Under the pieces are notes generated by a model. The model did no database searches, was not told where the DNA came from, and saw nothing but the letters and a program-made list of their open reading frames with translations. From the NCBI GenBank assembly GCA_022841905.1, contig JALHQO010000002.1:310001-374000 (forward strand): a DNA stretch of 64,000 nt, read 5' to 3'. Origin of the DNA: Hyphomonadaceae bacterium (GTDB lineage: Bacteria; Pseudomonadota; Alphaproteobacteria; Caulobacterales; Aquidulcibacteraceae). Each line of letters starts with the position of its first letter. Position 1 is the first letter of the stretch. Below are positions 1 through 12,908 of this stretch, in pieces. A program made the translations under genes and the position numbers.

Positions 1-319
1 GCCCGGTTTGTCGACCGTGACGCACTTCCTCTGAAGGCGTTGGCGTCAGTTTCGGGTCGATGTGCTTCGGCGCTGCGGGCGCGAGTTCTGAGATCACGAA
101 GCCCGGCGTCGCTGGCAGCAGTACGAAGTCGCCGGCGGCGAGTGTGATCGGCGCCGCGCCATCGACCGCGAGCCGGCACTGGCCCTCCAAGACGGCGGAG
201 AAGCTTGGATGACCGAATTCGGCATAGCGGACGGCCCAGGCGCCGGCGCCGCTGATGCCTTTGGCGAACACGGCGCGTGGCTTGAGCAGGGTGACGACAT
301 CGGAGAGGGGATCGCTCAT
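1..319 (-). CDS. AraC-family transcriptional regulator, N-terminal part (runs off window)
   Basis: Reading the minus strand from an ATG at 319 gives an open frame to the window edge that begins MSDPLSDVVTLLKPRAVFAK. It continues with a cupin-like run (FGHPSFSAVLEG, DFVLLPATPGF) typical of the N-terminal effector-binding domain of AraC regulators of the cupin_6 type. The DNA-binding domain would lie outside the window. The gene is divergent from the short-chain dehydrogenase that starts 30 bases away, a common arrangement in which the regulator controls the oxidoreductase. The link to the SDR is inference; the cupin-type N-terminus is what the sequence shows. Confidence 0.75.
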   Translation of the reverse strand, partial: MSDPLSDVVTLLKPRAVFAKGISGAGAWAVRYAEFGHPSFSAVLEGQCRLAVDGAAPITLAAGDFVLLPATPGFVISELAPAAPKHIDPKLTPTPSEEVRHGRQTG

Positions 320-1450: not shown

Positions 1451-3709
<2,259 letters not shown>

Positions 3710-6922: not shown

Positions 6923-7927
6923 ATGAAACTGTTTGTTGGGGCGGCTGTCGCCGCCTGTTTGATGGTCGTAACGCAACCGGCCAACGCCCAAAGCTTCGGC
7001 TTCGAGCGTGTGTCGATGCAGGTCGGCTATGGCGACTTAGATTTGAACAGCACCGCCGGCTCGGCGGCGATGTACGCCCGCATTGAAGCCGCGGCGCATC
7101 AAGTGTGCGGCGGCGACCCGTCGCGCGAGCGCAACTGGCGCGTGCGCCGGGCCATGCGCGATTGCGTCCGGACCGCCACGCACGACGCGGTCGCGGCGTC
7201 CGGCAGCCAAAGCCTCAGCGCCTACGCGGAGTCGCCGGGCTATTATCAGCGCCGTATCGAAATCAATCGCGATAACGCCGAAGCGCGCGTCTTCTATGCT
7301 GACCTCAATCTCAACTCCGCATACGGCCAGACAATGCTTGCCCGCCGTCTCGATCGCGCCGCGGACCGGCTCTGCCGCAATGCGGGCGATCGCCAGGAGC
7401 GGAACGCCTGCGAGGTCGGCGCGCGTGAACAAGCGCAAACGCAGGTGGCCGCCATCATCTCCGAACGTCAGCTCGCGCAAGCGGATGATGGTCAGGTGGT
7501 GTTGACCGCTGCGTCGCTGCCCGCGGGCGCCGCCGTCCCTCCGCCGTCGGCGCCCGCGGCTCAGCCGCAGGTGATTGCCGCAATGACGGACTACGGTGTC
7601 TGCGCCGCACGCTCGCATAATGCCGCCTTCGGCGCGTCGTCCGCCGCACTCGGCGCGACCGCTCGCCGCGAAATCGGCTACGCGCTCGACAGCGCTTCGG
7701 TGTGCACGCTTGAGCGCGCGGTCATCGCAGCTGACGCGTCCAGCGCTCTCGCCCAACGCCGCGCCGCGGCGCTTCGGTCGGCCCTGATCGCGCGTGGCGT
7801 GCCCGCTACGAGCATCGTCATCGAAGACACGCAAGCCGCCGATGGCGCCGCCGTCTCCATGCAGTTCAGCGGCGTCGCCTATGGCGGCTCCACCACGCTC
7901 GCCGAAGTCCGCGACGCCGGCGTCTAA
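6923..7927 (+). CDS. secreted double-UrcA protein with OmpA-like tail
   Basis: 334 residues with a signal peptide cleaved after about NAQ (residue 23). Two UrcA-type repeats follow: QVGYGDLDLNSTAGSAAMYA with C62/C81, and VFYADLNLNSAYGQTMLARR with C151/C163, each with the spaced Cys pair likely to form a disulfide. After a Pro/Ala linker the C-terminus (276-300, ALAQRRAAALRSALIARGVP) resembles the second half of an OmpA-like peptidoglycan-associating domain. GGAGGGG precedes the ATG and a strong terminator follows. UrcA proteins are exported proteins of unknown function in Alphaproteobacteria; the fused tail is unusual. Confidence 0.8.
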   Translation: MKLFVGAAVAACLMVVTQPANAQSFGFERVSMQVGYGDLDLNSTAGSAAMYARIEAAAHQVCGGDPSRERNWRVRRAMRDCVRTATHDAVAASGSQSLSAYAESPGYYQRRIEINRDNAEARVFYADLNLNSAYGQTMLARRLDRAADRLCRNAGDRQERNACEVGAREQAQTQVAAIISERQLAQADDGQVVLTAASLPAGAAVPPPSAPAAQPQVIAAMTDYGVCAARSHNAAFGASSAALGATARREIGYALDSASVCTLERAVIAADASSALAQRRAAALRSALIARGVPATSIVIEDTQAADGAAVSMQFSGVAYGGSTTLAEVRDAGV

Positions 7928-7950
7928 GCCAACACTGCCGCGAAAACTCA

Positions 7951-7980
7951 AGGGCGGTCCGCAAGGGCCGCCCTTTTTTT
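7951..7980 (+). terminator. rho-independent terminator of the UrcA gene
   Basis: The stem AGGGCGGTCC / GGGCCGCCCT around a GCAA loop, with one G-T pair, is followed by seven T residues. It sits 23 bases after the UrcA stop codon. Confidence 0.9.
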
Positions 7981-7983
7981 GCG

Positions 7984-8367
7984 CTATGATCGCGGCTGCG
8001 GCGATTGCTGGCGCGGCTGAAGGGCGCGCTGAAGTGCAGGGCGCACGCGGAGAAAGCCGCGATAGGCGAACTCGAGCAGCGCCAATGCTGGCGGCCAACG
8101 CGCCAGTATTCCAAGCGGACGCAGCATTGGCACAGCCCGCCACATCGCCGCGAACGCAGCGGCGCCGGAGAGCAAGACCCCGTCGCCCTCGCGAGCATGG
8201 AAGCGCGCCAGCAATTCGTTTCGATCTATCGGGCAGCTTGTTGCATCGCCGGCGACATCGACGAAATGGATAGCGCCGCGTTGATCGAGCCGGCGCATCA
8301 GGCTAATCTCGCGCCGGCACAGCGGACAATCGCCGTCGAACCAAACGGTAAGCTCGGGCGCGGGCAT
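7984..8367 (-). CDS. DCC-type thiol-disulfide oxidoreductase (DUF393)
   Basis: 127 residues opening with LTVWFDGDCPLCRREI, the DxxCxxC signature of the DCC family, a thioredoxin-like fold thought to do thiol-disulfide exchange. The middle (LLSGAAAFAAMWRAVP) matches the usual helix of the family. Its ATG overlaps the TGA of the upstream SOUL gene by one base (ATGA), so the two are very likely translated together. The physiological partner is unknown. Confidence 0.85.
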   Translation of the reverse strand: MPAPELTVWFDGDCPLCRREISLMRRLDQRGAIHFVDVAGDATSCPIDRNELLARFHAREGDGVLLSGAAAFAAMWRAVPMLRPLGILARWPPALALLEFAYRGFLRVRPALQRALQPRQQSPQPRS

Positions 8368-8984
8368 CAGGTTGCGAGTTCCAGCATGACTTCGTTACGG
8401 CGCATCCAGGGGAGCGTCCACGGCGGATTGTAGAACGCGTAAGTCGCGGGGCCAGTCGCCACTTCGCCGCGTGCGGCGACGCGCCGGCGCAACTCCTCGA
8501 CATGCCGCACGAGATTGTTTTCGCCGCCAAGGCCAGTGAAGCGCAGCACGGCGACTCTCCGGCGCGGTTGCTCTCGAACAACAACACTAGCGTCGAGGGG
8601 GCGGGGCATGTCTGAAAGAGCGGATCCCGGCGGCATGTAGAAGGTCACCACCCAACGCGCGCCCGAAGCGGCCTGCGTCACTGGCGCTGTCATGGCGATG
8701 CGTTGGCCAGTGGGGCGCTGCGTGACCGGGGCAGTCATGGCGATCTCTTGGTTTGGCGCGTTGCCGCCGAAGATGAACCGCGCCAGCCGCCGAAAGCCTT
8801 CGTTGATCGCAGCGCCGCGCTCGCCTTCGATCTCCGTCTCCGCCACGACCGTTGCGCTATAGTCGCGAATTTGGAACGGGCCGTCCTCGTAAACCAGGGT
8901 CCAGCGCGGTTCTTCAACCGCATGTGCCGACGGCGCAGCCATGATCAACCCAACCAAGAAAAACGTGAACCAGAGAGATTTCAT
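8367..8984 (-). CDS. exported SOUL haem-binding family protein
   Basis: 205 residues with an N-terminal signal peptide (ending about APSAHA, residue 22). The body matches the SOUL/HBP family: FGGNAPNQEIAMTAPVTQ and the repeated IAMTAPVTQ, a mid-region VTFYMPPG, and a C-terminal YNPPWTLPWMRRNEVML. SOUL proteins bind haem or related hydrophobic ligands; bacterial members are little studied. With a signal peptide this one should act in the periplasm. It is coupled by overlap to the DCC oxidoreductase, which could service thiols in the same compartment or ligand pathway, though the DCC protein shows no signal peptide. Confidence 0.88.
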   Translation of the reverse strand: MKSLWFTFFLVGLIMAAPSAHAVEEPRWTLVYEDGPFQIRDYSATVVAETEIEGERGAAINEGFRRLARFIFGGNAPNQEIAMTAPVTQRPTGQRIAMTAPVTQAASGARWVVTFYMPPGSALSDMPRPLDASVVVREQPRRRVAVLRFTGLGGENNLVRHVEELRRRVAARGEVATGPATYAFYNPPWTLPWMRRNEVMLELAT

Positions 8985-9624: not shown

Positions 9625-9701
9625 TGGCGACCCCGGAGAGATTCGAACTCCCGACCATCTGCTTAGGACGCAGCAGCTCTATCCAGCTGAGCTACGGGGC
9701 C
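9625..9701 (-). tRNA. tRNA-Arg (anticodon CCU)
   Basis: The minus strand folds as a 77-base tRNA including an encoded 3' CCA. The acceptor is GGCCCCG/CGGGGTC, the D stem GCTC/GAGC, the anticodon arm reads CTGCGTCCTAAGCAG with anticodon CCT, and the T arm holds GTTCGAATC. No variable-arm expansion is seen. The 3' flank shows no integrase and no repeated tRNA fragment, so there is no sign it is used as an attachment site. Confidence 0.95.
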
Positions 9702-10223
9702 GGCCTGGATTTTTGCTAGTGAGATCAAACGATGCGCGCAAGCCCGGGCGGGAACATCCCGTGTGCTCGTCAGGGTGAGGCGATTGAGGTGCATCGCGCC
9801 AAGCGATTAATACGCCTAATGTACGATTGCGCACAGACTGGCGATCTCGCGCTTGCAACGGTCTCAGCACGTTAGGGGCTTTCCTCCCCCCACCTACCGT
9901 TCCTAACGGATCACGGATCGGCTTCCTCGCCCCGCCGCGAGGGAGCCGCTTTCCCGCTCAATCATTGGAAAAATTGGAAGTGCGTACCGCTCCACGCCCG
10001 AGAACTGTATCGCCCGTTATCTTGATGATCGGACTTGGCTTACCTCGTGCGCGCTTGCGGCGGCTTATTGCTTCACACTCTGAGCTAGCCAGAAGAAAAT
10101 TCAGTGTTTTATGGCGCCCAACCTCGTTTTGGTGCATTGTAGACACATCGGCCGTCACCAGTTGGCGAGCGGCTGACTGAGAGATGATTGAAGCTCCCGC
10201 CTCTGCGTGATGGAGCATACCCA
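9702..10223. other. 522-base intergenic stretch without a convincing gene
   Basis: Between tRNA-Arg and the Crp/Fnr gene. Short frames exist on both strands (for example 9827-10180 plus and 9958-10224 minus), but none has a ribosome-binding site, family motif or plausible codon pattern. The part from about 9960 to 10150 is AT-richer than its surroundings and may hold the Crp gene promoter. An 8-codon frame (ATG at 10184, stop by 10210) ends just before the Crp start and could be a leader peptide; that is speculative. Confidence 0.5.
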
Positions 10224-10970
10224 TTGTCCTTTCCCCCCAAGATCGCAGTTAAGAACCGTATTCTCGCGGCGTTGCCGCCCGAGGAATTCGCCAAAGTCGC
10301 GCCGCATCTGACGCGCGTTGAACTGAGTCTTGGCCAGTCCTTGCACCGTGCGGGCGACACGATCGACGTCGTCTACTTCGTCGAGAGCGGGTTCATCTCC
10401 GCGCTCACCATGCTGTCGGATGGGCAGCCTTTGGAAATTGGCTTGATCGGCGCCGAAGGCATTGCCGGTGTTTCCGTCATTCTCGGCGCCACGACATCGT
10501 ATAGCGAAACCATGTGCCAGACGGGCGGCGGCGCGTTTCGCATGCCGGCAGCGTTGCTTAAAGATGTGGTGACCCACGCGCCGCATCTGCGCGATCTGCT
10601 GTTGCGCTACGTCCACGTGTTTCATGTTCAGGTCGCGCAGACGGCGGCGTGTAACGCGCACCACGAACTCGGCCAGCGCTTGGCGCGCTGGCTGCTCGCC
10701 GCGCACGATCGCAGCCACGTGCCGGAATTGTCGCTGACGCAAGATCTGATCGCGGTGATGCTCGGCGTGCGCCGCTCCACCGTCAGCATCGCCGCCGGCA
10801 CTTTGCAGAAGGCTGGCGTCATCCGCTATCAGCACGGCCACATCACCATCACCGACCGCGTCGGCCTCGAGAACGCAGCGTGCGAGTGCTATGAGGCGGT
10901 GGCGGGTGAGTACCGGAATCTGTTCGGCGATTATCCCCATCGTGTCGTCGGTGTGAACGCGATGGCCTGA
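10224..10970 (+). CDS. Crp/Fnr-family transcriptional regulator
   Basis: About 248 residues from TTG at 10224, chosen because GGAG lies 8 bases upstream at 10212-10215; an in-frame TTG at 10188 would add 12 residues. An N-terminal cyclic-nucleotide-binding-like beta barrel (GQSLHRAGDTIDVVYFVESG, EIGLIGAEGIAGVSVILG) is followed by a Crp-type winged helix (LTQDLIAVMLGVRRSTVSIA). No Fe-S cysteine cluster of the Fnr type is evident, and the usual cAMP-binding FGE/RT residues are not clear, so the ligand is unknown. It lies about 110 bases upstream of the RyR-domain gene and may regulate it. Confidence 0.88.
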   Translation: MSFPPKIAVKNRILAALPPEEFAKVAPHLTRVELSLGQSLHRAGDTIDVVYFVESGFISALTMLSDGQPLEIGLIGAEGIAGVSVILGATTSYSETMCQTGGGAFRMPAALLKDVVTHAPHLRDLLLRYVHVFHVQVAQTAACNAHHELGQRLARWLLAAHDRSHVPELSLTQDLIAVMLGVRRSTVSIAAGTLQKAGVIRYQHGHITITDRVGLENAACECYEAVAGEYRNLFGDYPHRVVGVNAMA

Positions 10971-11081
10971 CGTCCGGCCAAACCTAGCCGCCAAATCCGC
11001 CGCTCCCGCAACCCTTCCGCTCTGGACACCGCTAGCCGCGCCGCCGATCATGGCGCCAGCTGGGGACGAGGGGGAACGCGC

Positions 11082-12908
11082 ATGGCGCAGCGCAACGCCA
11101 ATCTGTGGTCGTGCATCGCGTCGCGGCTCACCGCCATAGCGCACACCCGCGCCGGCGCGTTCCGCTGGGGGGTGATCGTGCTTCTGACGCTGATCTGGAT
11201 CGGCGGCGGCATGTATTATTGGTGGGATCGCGGCTGGCTTGAGGCGCTTTATCTCACCGTCGGCGCTGTCGGCATGTGGGACGATTATTTCGGCGCGCAG
11301 GATACGACGCTGCAGGTCGTGCGCTATGCGGCGATCGCAGTGCCGGTCGTTGGTTTGCTGTTTGCGTTCTCGGGGCAACTTGGTCGCTCGCTGGCGCGGC
11401 TCTTCAATCTCGGCGCATCGCACCATGTGGTGATTGCGGGCGATAGCCCGGCGGCCTTGTCGCTGGCGCTCGATTGCCGGCGCTACAAAGATAGCGTGAT
11501 CCTCTTGGCCGAGGGTCTACCGGATGAAACCGCGCTTGGGCTCCGCCGCAAAGGCATCACCGTCCTCGAAGGCGACGCCGCTCATTTGGAAACACTGCGC
11601 ACGGCGCGCGCGCACCATGCCGCGCATGTGGTGGCGTTCGAACCGGACGACACGGCAAACCTGCAGATCGAGGCGGCGGTGCGCCGGCTGATCGGCGATG
11701 GCAAACGCAGGCCGCCGATTGGCGTGCATGTGTCGACGCGCTCGTCGCTGCTGTTGAAGGAGGCGCGCGAAATGCGCTCGATGCAGATGCGGCGCGGCAA
11801 GAACGCGGCGCCGCCGATCGATCCGAAGCCGTTTTCGCTGGAAGAGCTCGCCGGCCGCGCCTTGATCCAGCACGAGAGCCAAACGCTGCTCAGCCTGGCG
11901 CAACAGCTGGGGCAAGACCGCGTCCATGTCGTGTTCTTCGGCTTTGACCAAGGCGCGGAAGCCGTGGCGGAGCGCATTTTGGTTTCGCTGTGGTCAGCGC
12001 ATTTCGAAGCGCCGCGTATCACCGTGCTGGCGCCGAACCATGAAGCGGTGGCGGCTGGCTTCCAGGCGCGTCACCGCGAAGCATTCGCGCATCCGCAAGT
12101 GTGGAGCGCCGACATTCAGTTTCTGCCTTTCGATTGGGATGCAGCCTCGATCACTGACGATCTGCTTGGCGAGATCGAACAGGCGCGCGGCAAGCCGACC
12201 GCAGTCGTTGTCTCCACCGGCGCCGATCCCGGCAATATCCATCTCGCTATCGCCCTGAAGCGCGCCTGCAATCGTGGCGGCCGCTGGCCCGTGCCGATCT
12301 ATATGCGTGAGACCAGCCAATCCGAGTTTTCCAAGGAATACGCCAAGGGCGACGAGACTGAAGAGCTCGATGCGTACCTGCAAGCTTTCGGTGGCCACCA
12401 AAGCACTGCGACGCGCGCGCGCATCATCAATGGCTCGCTCGATCGCGGCGCCGCCGTCGCGCACGAGCATTACAATAAGGGCCTCGGCAAGCGCGACGCG
12501 ATGAGCATGAAGGAGCTGCAGTCGGCGATGAAGGATTGGGGTGACGTGCTCGAAACCTACCGCGCCGCCAATCGCGCTGTCTCCGATGCCGCCATGACGA
12601 AACTGTGGGACGCCGGCTGGCGACCGGTCGCCAAGGGCGAGAAGGGCGATACCGCGCCCACCGTGCCTGACGAAATCATGGAGCGCATGGCCAAACGCGA
12701 GCATGATCGCTGGATGGCTGAGCGGCTCGTATCAGGCTGGCGCCCCACCGCGCCGAACGAAAAGCGCAATAACGATTTGATGATCCACGACAAGATCGTG
12801 CCGTGGGATGCGTTGAGCGAGGCCGACAAAAACAACGACGTCGTGCAAGTGCGCGCGTCGATGGATGTCGCCCGCGTGACGCACAAGGATGGCTTTGTGA
12901 AGCGCTAG
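11082..12908 (+). CDS. two-TM, tandem RCK-like protein with C-terminal RyR domain
   Basis: 608 residues. Two membrane helices (about 27-46 and 80-98) flank a pore-helix-like segment WLEALYLTVGAVGMWDD, reminiscent of a K+ channel filter but without TVGYGD. Two Rossmann-like RCK/TrkA-N units follow (about 113-230, HHVVIAGDSPAALSLALD; about 285-430, VHVVFFGFDQGAEAVAERIL). The C-terminus (about 536-600) carries a RyR repeat: REHDRWMAERLVSGW, then HDKIVPWDALSEADKNNDVV. RyR domains are known from ryanodine receptors and from bacterial proteins of unclear role. A ligand-gated channel or nucleotide sensor at the inner membrane is the likely function. It shares its last four bases with the convergent phoX. 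Confidence 0.8.
   Translation: MAQRNANLWSCIASRLTAIAHTRAGAFRWGVIVLLTLIWIGGGMYYWWDRGWLEALYLTVGAVGMWDDYFGAQDTTLQVVRYAAIAVPVVGLLFAFSGQLGRSLARLFNLGASHHVVIAGDSPAALSLALDCRRYKDSVILLAEGLPDETALGLRRKGITVLEGDAAHLETLRTARAHHAAHVVAFEPDDTANLQIEAAVRRLIGDGKRRPPIGVHVSTRSSLLLKEAREMRSMQMRRGKNAAPPIDPKPFSLEELAGRALIQHESQTLLSLAQQLGQDRVHVVFFGFDQGAEAVAERILVSLWSAHFEAPRITVLAPNHEAVAAGFQARHREAFAHPQVWSADIQFLPFDWDAASITDDLLGEIEQARGKPTAVVVSTGADPGNIHLAIALKRACNRGGRWPVPIYMRETSQSEFSKEYAKGDETEELDAYLQAFGGHQSTATRARIINGSLDRGAAVAHEHYNKGLGKRDAMSMKELQSAMKDWGDVLETYRAANRAVSDAAMTKLWDAGWRPVAKGEKGDTAPTVPDEIMERMAKREHDRWMAERLVSGWRPTAPNEKRNNDLMIHDKIVPWDALSEADKNNDVVQVRASMDVARVTHKDGFVKR

Follow-up and report, generated by a model that had tools for sequence, protein, structure and literature searches.

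A two-transmembrane, tandem-RCK protein with a C-terminal RyR domain in a Hyphomonadaceae bacterium: a candidate nucleotide-gated channel whose distant relatives often adjoin conflict-type genes

In animal cell biology it is an old dispute whether signals of the cyclic ADP-ribose (cADPR) type act directly on ryanodine receptor (RyR) domains. A 64,000-nucleotide stretch of the genome of a Hyphomonadaceae bacterium (contig JALHQO010000002.1, positions 310,001 to 374,000, hereafter called the window) brings this question to bacteria, as it holds a gene for a 608-residue membrane protein in which two transmembrane (TM) segments, two RCK domains and a C-terminal RyR domain are joined. What could such a protein sense, and what could it gate? 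The available part of a 2026 preprint also raises the question of cADPR-type signals acting on RyR domains (PMC13232231), and a host function for bacterial RyR domains was not found in the open-licence full-text literature. We propose, with a probability of about 0.52, that the protein is a channel gated by an RCK ring whose RyR domain senses a nucleotide of the ADP-ribose (ADPR) type, and that the family serves as an effector beside TIR, STAND or SLATT genes in distant relatives while persisting as a stable, unlinked core gene in the genus of the window. This reading is directly based on the domain architecture, the conservation of the RyR pocket, the predicted fold, the lack of a K+ filter motif and the pattern of neighbouring genes; the oligomer, conduction, ligand, gating direction and role in defence are what we infer. 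The 2TM/RCK channels, RyR domains and TIR systems are known parts, and the novelty suggested by the sequences would lie in their joining.

The open reading frame (ORF) starts with ATG (coordinates of all features are given in Table 1). Its product matches Pfam TrkA_N at residues 149-206 (31.5 bits, cut-off 23.8) and Pfam RyR (PF02026) at residues 530-593 (29.1 bits, cut-off 27.4), and a RyR family search of the same genome gave it a score of 32.4 bits. Using phmmer against PDB sequences, we retrieved the RyR1 chimera 6uhi with an expectation value (E) of 2.9e-7, and MthK was aligned to residues 26-201 (E 3.7e-5). The second RCK has no Pfam match and its assignment rests on structure. An AlphaFold2 (AF2) monomer model was read alongside a 21-row alignment, from which it was built, comprising 13 closely related rows of the window clade and eight others, with three near-identical Mycobacterium rows. 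The model of the full protein reached a predicted local distance difference test score (pLDDT) of 84.2 and a predicted template modelling score (pTM) of 0.80, and its order is TM1, a short helix, TM2, two Rossmann-type units and the RyR helices. The best structure match was the gating ring of DMI1 (Z 18.9, 323 residues, 4.1 Å), followed by GsuK, whose pore is part of the match (351 residues from residue 24 on, Z 18.6, but at 8.5 Å), and by the gating rings of KtrA (Z 18.6), TrkA (Z 17.7) and CASTOR (Z 17.5). A profile of the 21 rows searched against the PDB retrieved RyR (E 1.6e-26) and, over profile positions 31-206, that is the pore and RCK1, GsuK (E 4.4e-13). Pfam, the model and the fold matches thus confirm the 2TM, tandem-RCK, RyR protein described in the original prediction, which had been made from the sequence alone, and its RyR match is upheld by the hidden Markov model search.

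The putative pore departs from that of a K+ channel. Hydropathy gave two TM segments in 19 of the 21 rows and one in the other two, and a selectivity-filter motif of the TVGYG type is absent from the first 220 residues in all 21, in agreement with the "degenerate K+-channel-like pore" seen at first. A K+ channel in the strict sense was dropped because there is no filter motif. Residues 56-68 of the window protein read LYLTVGAVGMWDD, and W66, D67, Y69 and F70 are invariant across the 13 window-clade rows; the D67 column holds Asp in these 13 rows and not in the eight others. The block pLDDT falls to about 56-64 around residues 61-80, so the geometry of the pore loop is unsure. Structure prediction bore out the RyR fold and the succession of TM1, short helix and TM2 expected of a pore, with the loop itself at low confidence. 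Its architecture, its fold (GsuK, CASTOR/DMI1, TrkA) and the conserved RyR pocket speak for a channel gated by a nucleotide or other ligand, and we keep this as a likely interpretation.

Modelled alone, the RyR domain reached a pLDDT of 87.5, and its fold matched a Bacteroides thetaiotaomicron-human chimera (6uhi, Z 9.6), the B. thetaiotaomicron domain 3nrt (Z 9.5) and human RyR3 Repeat12 (Z 8.3); rows 1-28 of the fold matches are all RyR entries, the first unrelated row having Z 3.1. A profile of the RyR region reached E 1.7e-30 against PDB RyR sequences. According to the available text of PMC13232231, the phage RyR-domain protein RyDEP cleaves 2'cADPR and 3'cADPR, which are TIR signals, through H75, W78, H100 and D117, with H75/D117 as the catalytic pair, and its ligand residues are conserved in animal R12 domains. 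The residue spacing (+3, +25, +42) is the same in RyR1 and RyDEP, and through this spacing and the alignment of RyR1 with the window protein the four residues map to H541, W544, H569 and D586. H541 and W544 are found in 21 of 21 rows, D586 in 20 and H569 in 17, and a check of nine further RCK-RyR relatives found the H..W motif in eight.

As H541 and D586 correspond to both catalytic residues of RyDEP, a signal-destroying or signal-sponging function is conceivable. Rather than a channel, the protein might then be an off-switch that sits in the membrane, sequesters or hydrolyses cADPR signals as a sponge or glycosidase, and so protects TIR-rich cells from what they make themselves. The available text of PMC13232231 reports, besides the cleavage by RyDEP, that two phage homologues sequester 2'/3'cADPR, and the genomes of the genus that were tested are rich in TIR matches (see below). 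The same text reports that most other homologues tested bind without cleaving. Moreover, a soluble domain would suffice for such a task, and a build with TM1, a pore-like helix, TM2 and tandem RCK argues for gating; we thus regard the off-switch as distinctly improbable.

RyR domains were also met in other bacterial contexts. A guanylate-cyclase-RyR fusion (L082, 5874-8459) and a TPR-RyR fusion (L126, 1-1926) hint that RyR is a nucleotide-related sensor module of bacteria. On contig C4 of the window's own genome, a patatin-like phospholipase gene (L122, 1625-2857) precedes a gene for a soluble 221-aa protein (2904-3569) with two RyR-like H..W motifs and a RyR score of 22.0 bits, below the cut-off of 27.4. 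With a bacterial RyR-domain query, 190 phage records matched at an E limit of 1, the strongest at 9e-9; those listed are mostly unnamed proteins.

Support for an effector role comes from the neighbours of the gene outside the genus. We inspected 14 such lineages, each counted once, and found conflict- or signal-type neighbours (TIR, STAND, SLATT, patatin, RelA/SpoT-RyR) in 12, a tally for which the neighbour classes were named after seeing them and the labels entered by hand. In five lineages of the 14, a gene with a TIR_2 match above cut-off adjoins the RCK-RyR gene or lies two genes off (Table 1). G533 and G162 each have one TIR_2 match in the genome, namely this neighbour. Across nine genomes, a TIR gene within 8 kb would be expected 0.05 times from the genome-wide density of TIR genes and was seen in three, with P about 2e-5, a value computed after the pattern had been seen. 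The nSTAND1-FGE locus of G108, with its reverse transcriptase and FGE remnant, looks like a diversity-generating retroelement at a conflict locus. By eye, and without a Pfam scan, there was no conflict-type neighbour in G654 and UBA1001, where a contig end is near in both; REEB77, a near relative of LL6, was left out of the Pfam neighbour scan. The neighbouring genes suggest that the distant relatives act as effectors in TIR or STAND immunity.

Table 1. Features of the window and neighbours of the RCK-RyR gene in distant lineages
Feature	Coordinates	Strand or orientation	Basis or remark
RCK-RyR membrane protein gene, 608 aa	11082..12908	+	Pfam and structure model
TM1, residues 24-46	11151..11219	+	AF2 helix 24-46; hydropathy window 26-44
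Pore-like helix 52-61 and filter-position loop 62-74	11235..11303	+	AF2 model and alignment
TM2, residues 75-111, entering the cytoplasmic part	11304..11414	+	AF2; hydropathy 79-97
RCK1, about residues 113-275	11418..11906	+	Pfam TrkA_N 149-206 and structure match
RCK2, about residues 279-465	11916..12476	+	Structure only (DMI1, GsuK, KtrA, TrkA matches)
RyR domain region, residues 478-608, pocket H541/W544/H569/D586	12513..12905	+	Pfam, profile, fold, conservation
Crp/Fnr-type regulator	10224..10970	+	HTH_Crp_2 and cNMP_binding; outside the unit
Mycobacterium: TIR_2 gene		convergent	14 bases; in two of three loci scanned
Verrucomicrobia: TIR_2 gene		same strand	14 bases
G462: TIR-nSTAND1-TPR		same strand	37 bases
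G533: TIR-WD40		convergent	24 bases
G162: TIR-nSTAND1-WD40			Caspase-FGE gene in between
G108: nSTAND1-FGE, reverse transcriptase and FGE remnant	L111 2-5308		Directly upstream of the RCK-RyR gene
G096: DUF4062-NTPase-WD40			
Sinorhizobium plasmids: STAND-TPR protein			4-base overlap; DUF4062 and NB-ARC scores just below cut-off
Methylobacterium and LL6: patatin and SLATT or DUF4231			SLATT or DUF4231 sub-threshold
G604: SLATT			Above cut-off
Coriobacteriaceae metagenome-assembled genome: RelA/SpoT-RyR fusion, 835 aa	L076 9733-12240	-, convergent with the RCK-RyR gene	

Outside the genus, relatives of the window protein are rare. A sample of 397 other genomes of the phylum yielded at least 5 with such a gene, and one of 384 genomes of the class likewise at least 5, both lower bounds because at most three (phylum) or two (class) candidates were scored in each genome. 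In one further class the gene was found in 4 of 48 genomes, of which two were already in the phylum sweep and one, G221, matches the RyR part only. Further relatives are present in Mycobacterium, in a Coriobacteriaceae and a Verrucomicrobia metagenome-assembled genome, in Methylobacterium and on three Sinorhizobium plasmids, the latter matching the window protein at about 25% identity in tblastn. The same tblastn gave no phage match at E 0.01, and the view that the window gene came from a phage or a plasmid was set aside. In a tree of 23 proteins the window clade is supported (100/99); many long branches meet there and its deep placement is unsure.

The situation within the genus is different. 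The channel gene is present in 22 of 24 other genomes of the genus (all but G008 and G017) and in none of 16 genomes of the same order outside it. Copies are cut by contig ends in G001 and G021, and the one of G014 (L051, around 7027-8850) splits into three frames, being either a broken copy or an assembly error. Four pairs gave 0.03-0.16 nonsynonymous substitutions per site (dN) vs 0.6-1.1 synonymous ones (dS), that is dN/dS of about 0.05-0.15, and the protein is under purifying selection. Downstream of the gene, a 480-codon ORF is kept in 17 of 20 loci and a 680-codon ORF in 15, and the genes upstream mostly vary between genomes. A tRNA-Arg(CCT) gene (9625-9701, minus strand) lies near a point at which the species of the genus diverge in their gene order, the downstream order being mostly kept.

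Such a distribution would fit a housekeeping channel of the genus that has lost any immune role and senses the energy or NAD state (ADP, ATP, NAD+, ADPR) through ring and RyR domain, serving the balance of ions or the osmotic balance of the cell. Its vertical, near-core inheritance at low dN/dS and the conserved 480-codon neighbour favour this explanation, as does the lack of a TIR gene beside it in the clade (by the insensitive tblastn described below), and GsuK is activated by ADP and NAD+ according to the available text of PMC3510474. On the other hand, distant relatives often adjoin conflict-type genes, the 16 same-order genomes gave no match, and the absence of the gene from G008, which is 99% complete, suggests that it is dispensable. 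We consider a purely housekeeping channel unlikely.

The genus is also rich in TIR genes. TIR_2 matches number 10-25 per genome in 11 genus genomes with the channel, with 13 in the window's own, vs 0-4 in each of 16 other genomes of the family or order, nine of which have none. The expansion extends across all 13 genus genomes tested (10-25 each), and a tandem pair of TIR proteins of about 320-350 aa (L113, 2593-4661, in the window's own genome) seems to recur. In a bolder version of the proposal, RCK-RyR proteins would be cADPR-gated cation channels serving as effectors of Thoeris-like TIR and of STAND immune systems. Their RyR domain would recognise what the TIR enzyme makes and thereby open a membrane pore, with one core receptor in the genus serving ten or more scattered TIR enzymes. 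We offer it as a tentative possibility. If true, bacteria would have an equivalent of the disputed axis that leads from cADPR to RyR in animal cells.

Several observations weigh against the reading that we prefer, that of an RCK-ring channel sensing an ADPR-type nucleotide with a conflict role in distant relatives. At the level of the protein, the glycine motif of RCK1 is degenerate (GDSPAA) in the window protein, and no filter motif is common to the eight rows outside the window clade. Six relatives fall below the RyR cut-off, five with 18.2, 25.4, 17.6, 22.2 and 23.0 bits and L105 without a match at E 0.01; one of the six, L107, is also the ninth relative of the motif check, in which His is kept and Phe replaces the pocket Trp. 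Regarding the neighbours, six of the nine genomes of the TIR-density test have no TIR gene within 8 kb, and the WxxxE motif of TIR domains is present in three of six adjacent TIR domains scanned and absent from the other three. On the 23-protein tree the TIR label requires three changes, two of them imposed by starred branches; an equally good result was reached by 196 of 500 shuffles, so that the TIR-linked members are neither brought together nor kept apart by the tree. PADLOC gave no match for the seven proteins tested. Within the genus, near-core and vertical inheritance is unlike that of a typical defence gene. A tblastn search with 11 TIR queries (E 1e-3) gave no match in the window, nor in 33 stretches of the window clade (sets of 20 and 13 that overlap in part), a search that is insensitive, because its two positive controls were recovered only by their own queries, and none of the TIR_2 matches listed for genus genomes lies within 8 kb of the channel gene. 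Finally, the channel-less G008 and G017 hold 11 and 20 TIR_2 matches, and the link between TIR genes and channel is for this reason at best one at genus level, resting on a single contrast. The survey of homologues for defence islands that had been suggested with the original prediction gave a positive outcome in the distant family and a negative one in the genus of the window. For the window gene, the same ligand class as in the distant relatives is likely, and an immune role is possible, a metabolic one being nearly as plausible.

The gene lying upstream had been seen as a possible partner of the channel in one sensing and gating unit. It does encode a Crp/Fnr-type regulator (HTH_Crp_2 59.1 bits; cNMP_binding 27.5 bits, equal to the cut-off), on the same strand and ending 111 bases before the channel gene, close to the 110 first estimated; its exact start is unsure because TTG at 10224 or at 10188 may serve. 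This adjacency in one genome is the point in favour of a joint function. We examined 20 loci from other genomes of the genus, counting matches at E 1e-8 over more than 30% of the protein. In 18 of them the sequence reaches 3.3 kb or more beyond the channel gene on its upstream side, in the two others less than 0.6 kb. No Crp gene was found near the channel in any of the 18 assessable loci, nor anywhere in the 20 stretches. Of 30 genus genomes, 10 have matches to the Crp protein at E 1e-20, among them that of the window. In G014 the closest match is on the contig of the channel gene but some 760 kb distant from it, and in G020 the distance is about 1.05 Mb. Five Crp matches were counted in the genome of the window, this one included and one of them a 77% paralogue encoded on a different contig, and G008 lacks the channel gene although it has a Crp match of 80%. 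On these grounds the pairing was dropped: as a conserved unit it is refuted, a joint function being very improbable indeed, and the adjacency looks like local chance. Several Crp/Fnr paralogues were seen in each of G000, G001, G008, G019 and G020, with some neighbouring pairs on opposite strands, and some of the matches in G019 and G020 contain stop codons.

On the preferred reading, the window protein would be a cation channel of 2TM and tandem-RCK build, presumably tetrameric, in which the RyR domain, fixed at the end of the gating ring, acts as the ligand sensor. Its pocket would bind an adenine-containing nucleotide derived from NAD, most likely of the ADP-ribose type, such as a cADPR isomer, and binding would move the ring so that a pore not selective for K+ opens or closes. 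Its distant relatives would act at the membrane as effectors of conflict systems of the TIR, STAND or SLATT type; as a stable and unlinked core gene product of the window's genus, it would probably answer the same class of signal, possibly made by TIR proteins encoded elsewhere. One compact protein appears to combine a RyR sensor, with its ligand residues conserved, and a gating ring of the kind found in channels, and it has distant relatives beside a signal-making type of enzyme, a combination that allows a direct test of whether a cADPR isomer opens a bacterial channel through its RyR domain. It could add a channel-type effector to TIR immunity and could explain the RyR-domain sponges and hydrolases of phages. 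Among the open-licence full-text matches listed, a scope that most subscription journals lie outside, there was no text joining TIR with RCK-RyR proteins.

Several known systems share parts of this design. SLATT proteins, described in the available parts of PMC7159879 and PMC9503650 as predicted nucleotide-responsive pores in conflict systems, are 2TM effectors whose genes adjoin some RCK-RyR relatives; they belong to another Pfam family, and the SLATT neighbours scanned have no RCK or RyR match. The TIR genes beside or two genes from the RCK-RyR gene in five distant lineages recall Thoeris-type systems. Unlike in Thoeris, the window's copy has no TIR neighbour by the tblastn search above, and the Thoeris effector is, in the portion of the source available, a SIR2-SLOG or macro-domain ThsA, whereas the window protein has no such Pfam domain or PADLOC match. 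With the RyDEP phage proteins it shares a RyR domain with the same four ligand residues, but these cleave or sequester signals, and the available text of PMC13232231 mentions no membrane or RCK part for RyDEP.

As for channels, the predicted succession of TM1, pore helix, TM2 and RCK domains is that of the RCK-gated 2TM channels GsuK and MthK, with the loop at low confidence. GsuK from Geobacter sulfurreducens, which combines a 2TM pore with tandem RCK domains, is close in fold and profile (Z 18.6, E 4.4e-13); it is a K+ channel for which the available text mentions no RyR domain, whereas the window family lacks a TVGYG-type motif and has RyR at its C-terminus. The plant nuclear Ca2+ channels CASTOR, POLLUX and DMI1 have the same tandem RCK ring fold (Z 17.5-18.9) and no TVGYG motif; CASTOR/DMI1 are not among the best 60 of 123 profile matches. 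CASTOR is Ca2+-selective and needs its filter Asp, according to the available text of PMC6697748, and the likeness of this Asp to D67 of the window clade is one of position only. CASTOR and DMI1 differ in being Ca2+-gated, and the available text mentions no RyR domain for them. The animal ryanodine receptor differs in its channel architecture and has tandem repeats where the window protein has one C-terminal domain; its Repeat12 (6uhi, RyR3) is nevertheless homologous to that domain and, like it, part of a channel, as the proposed reading would have it.

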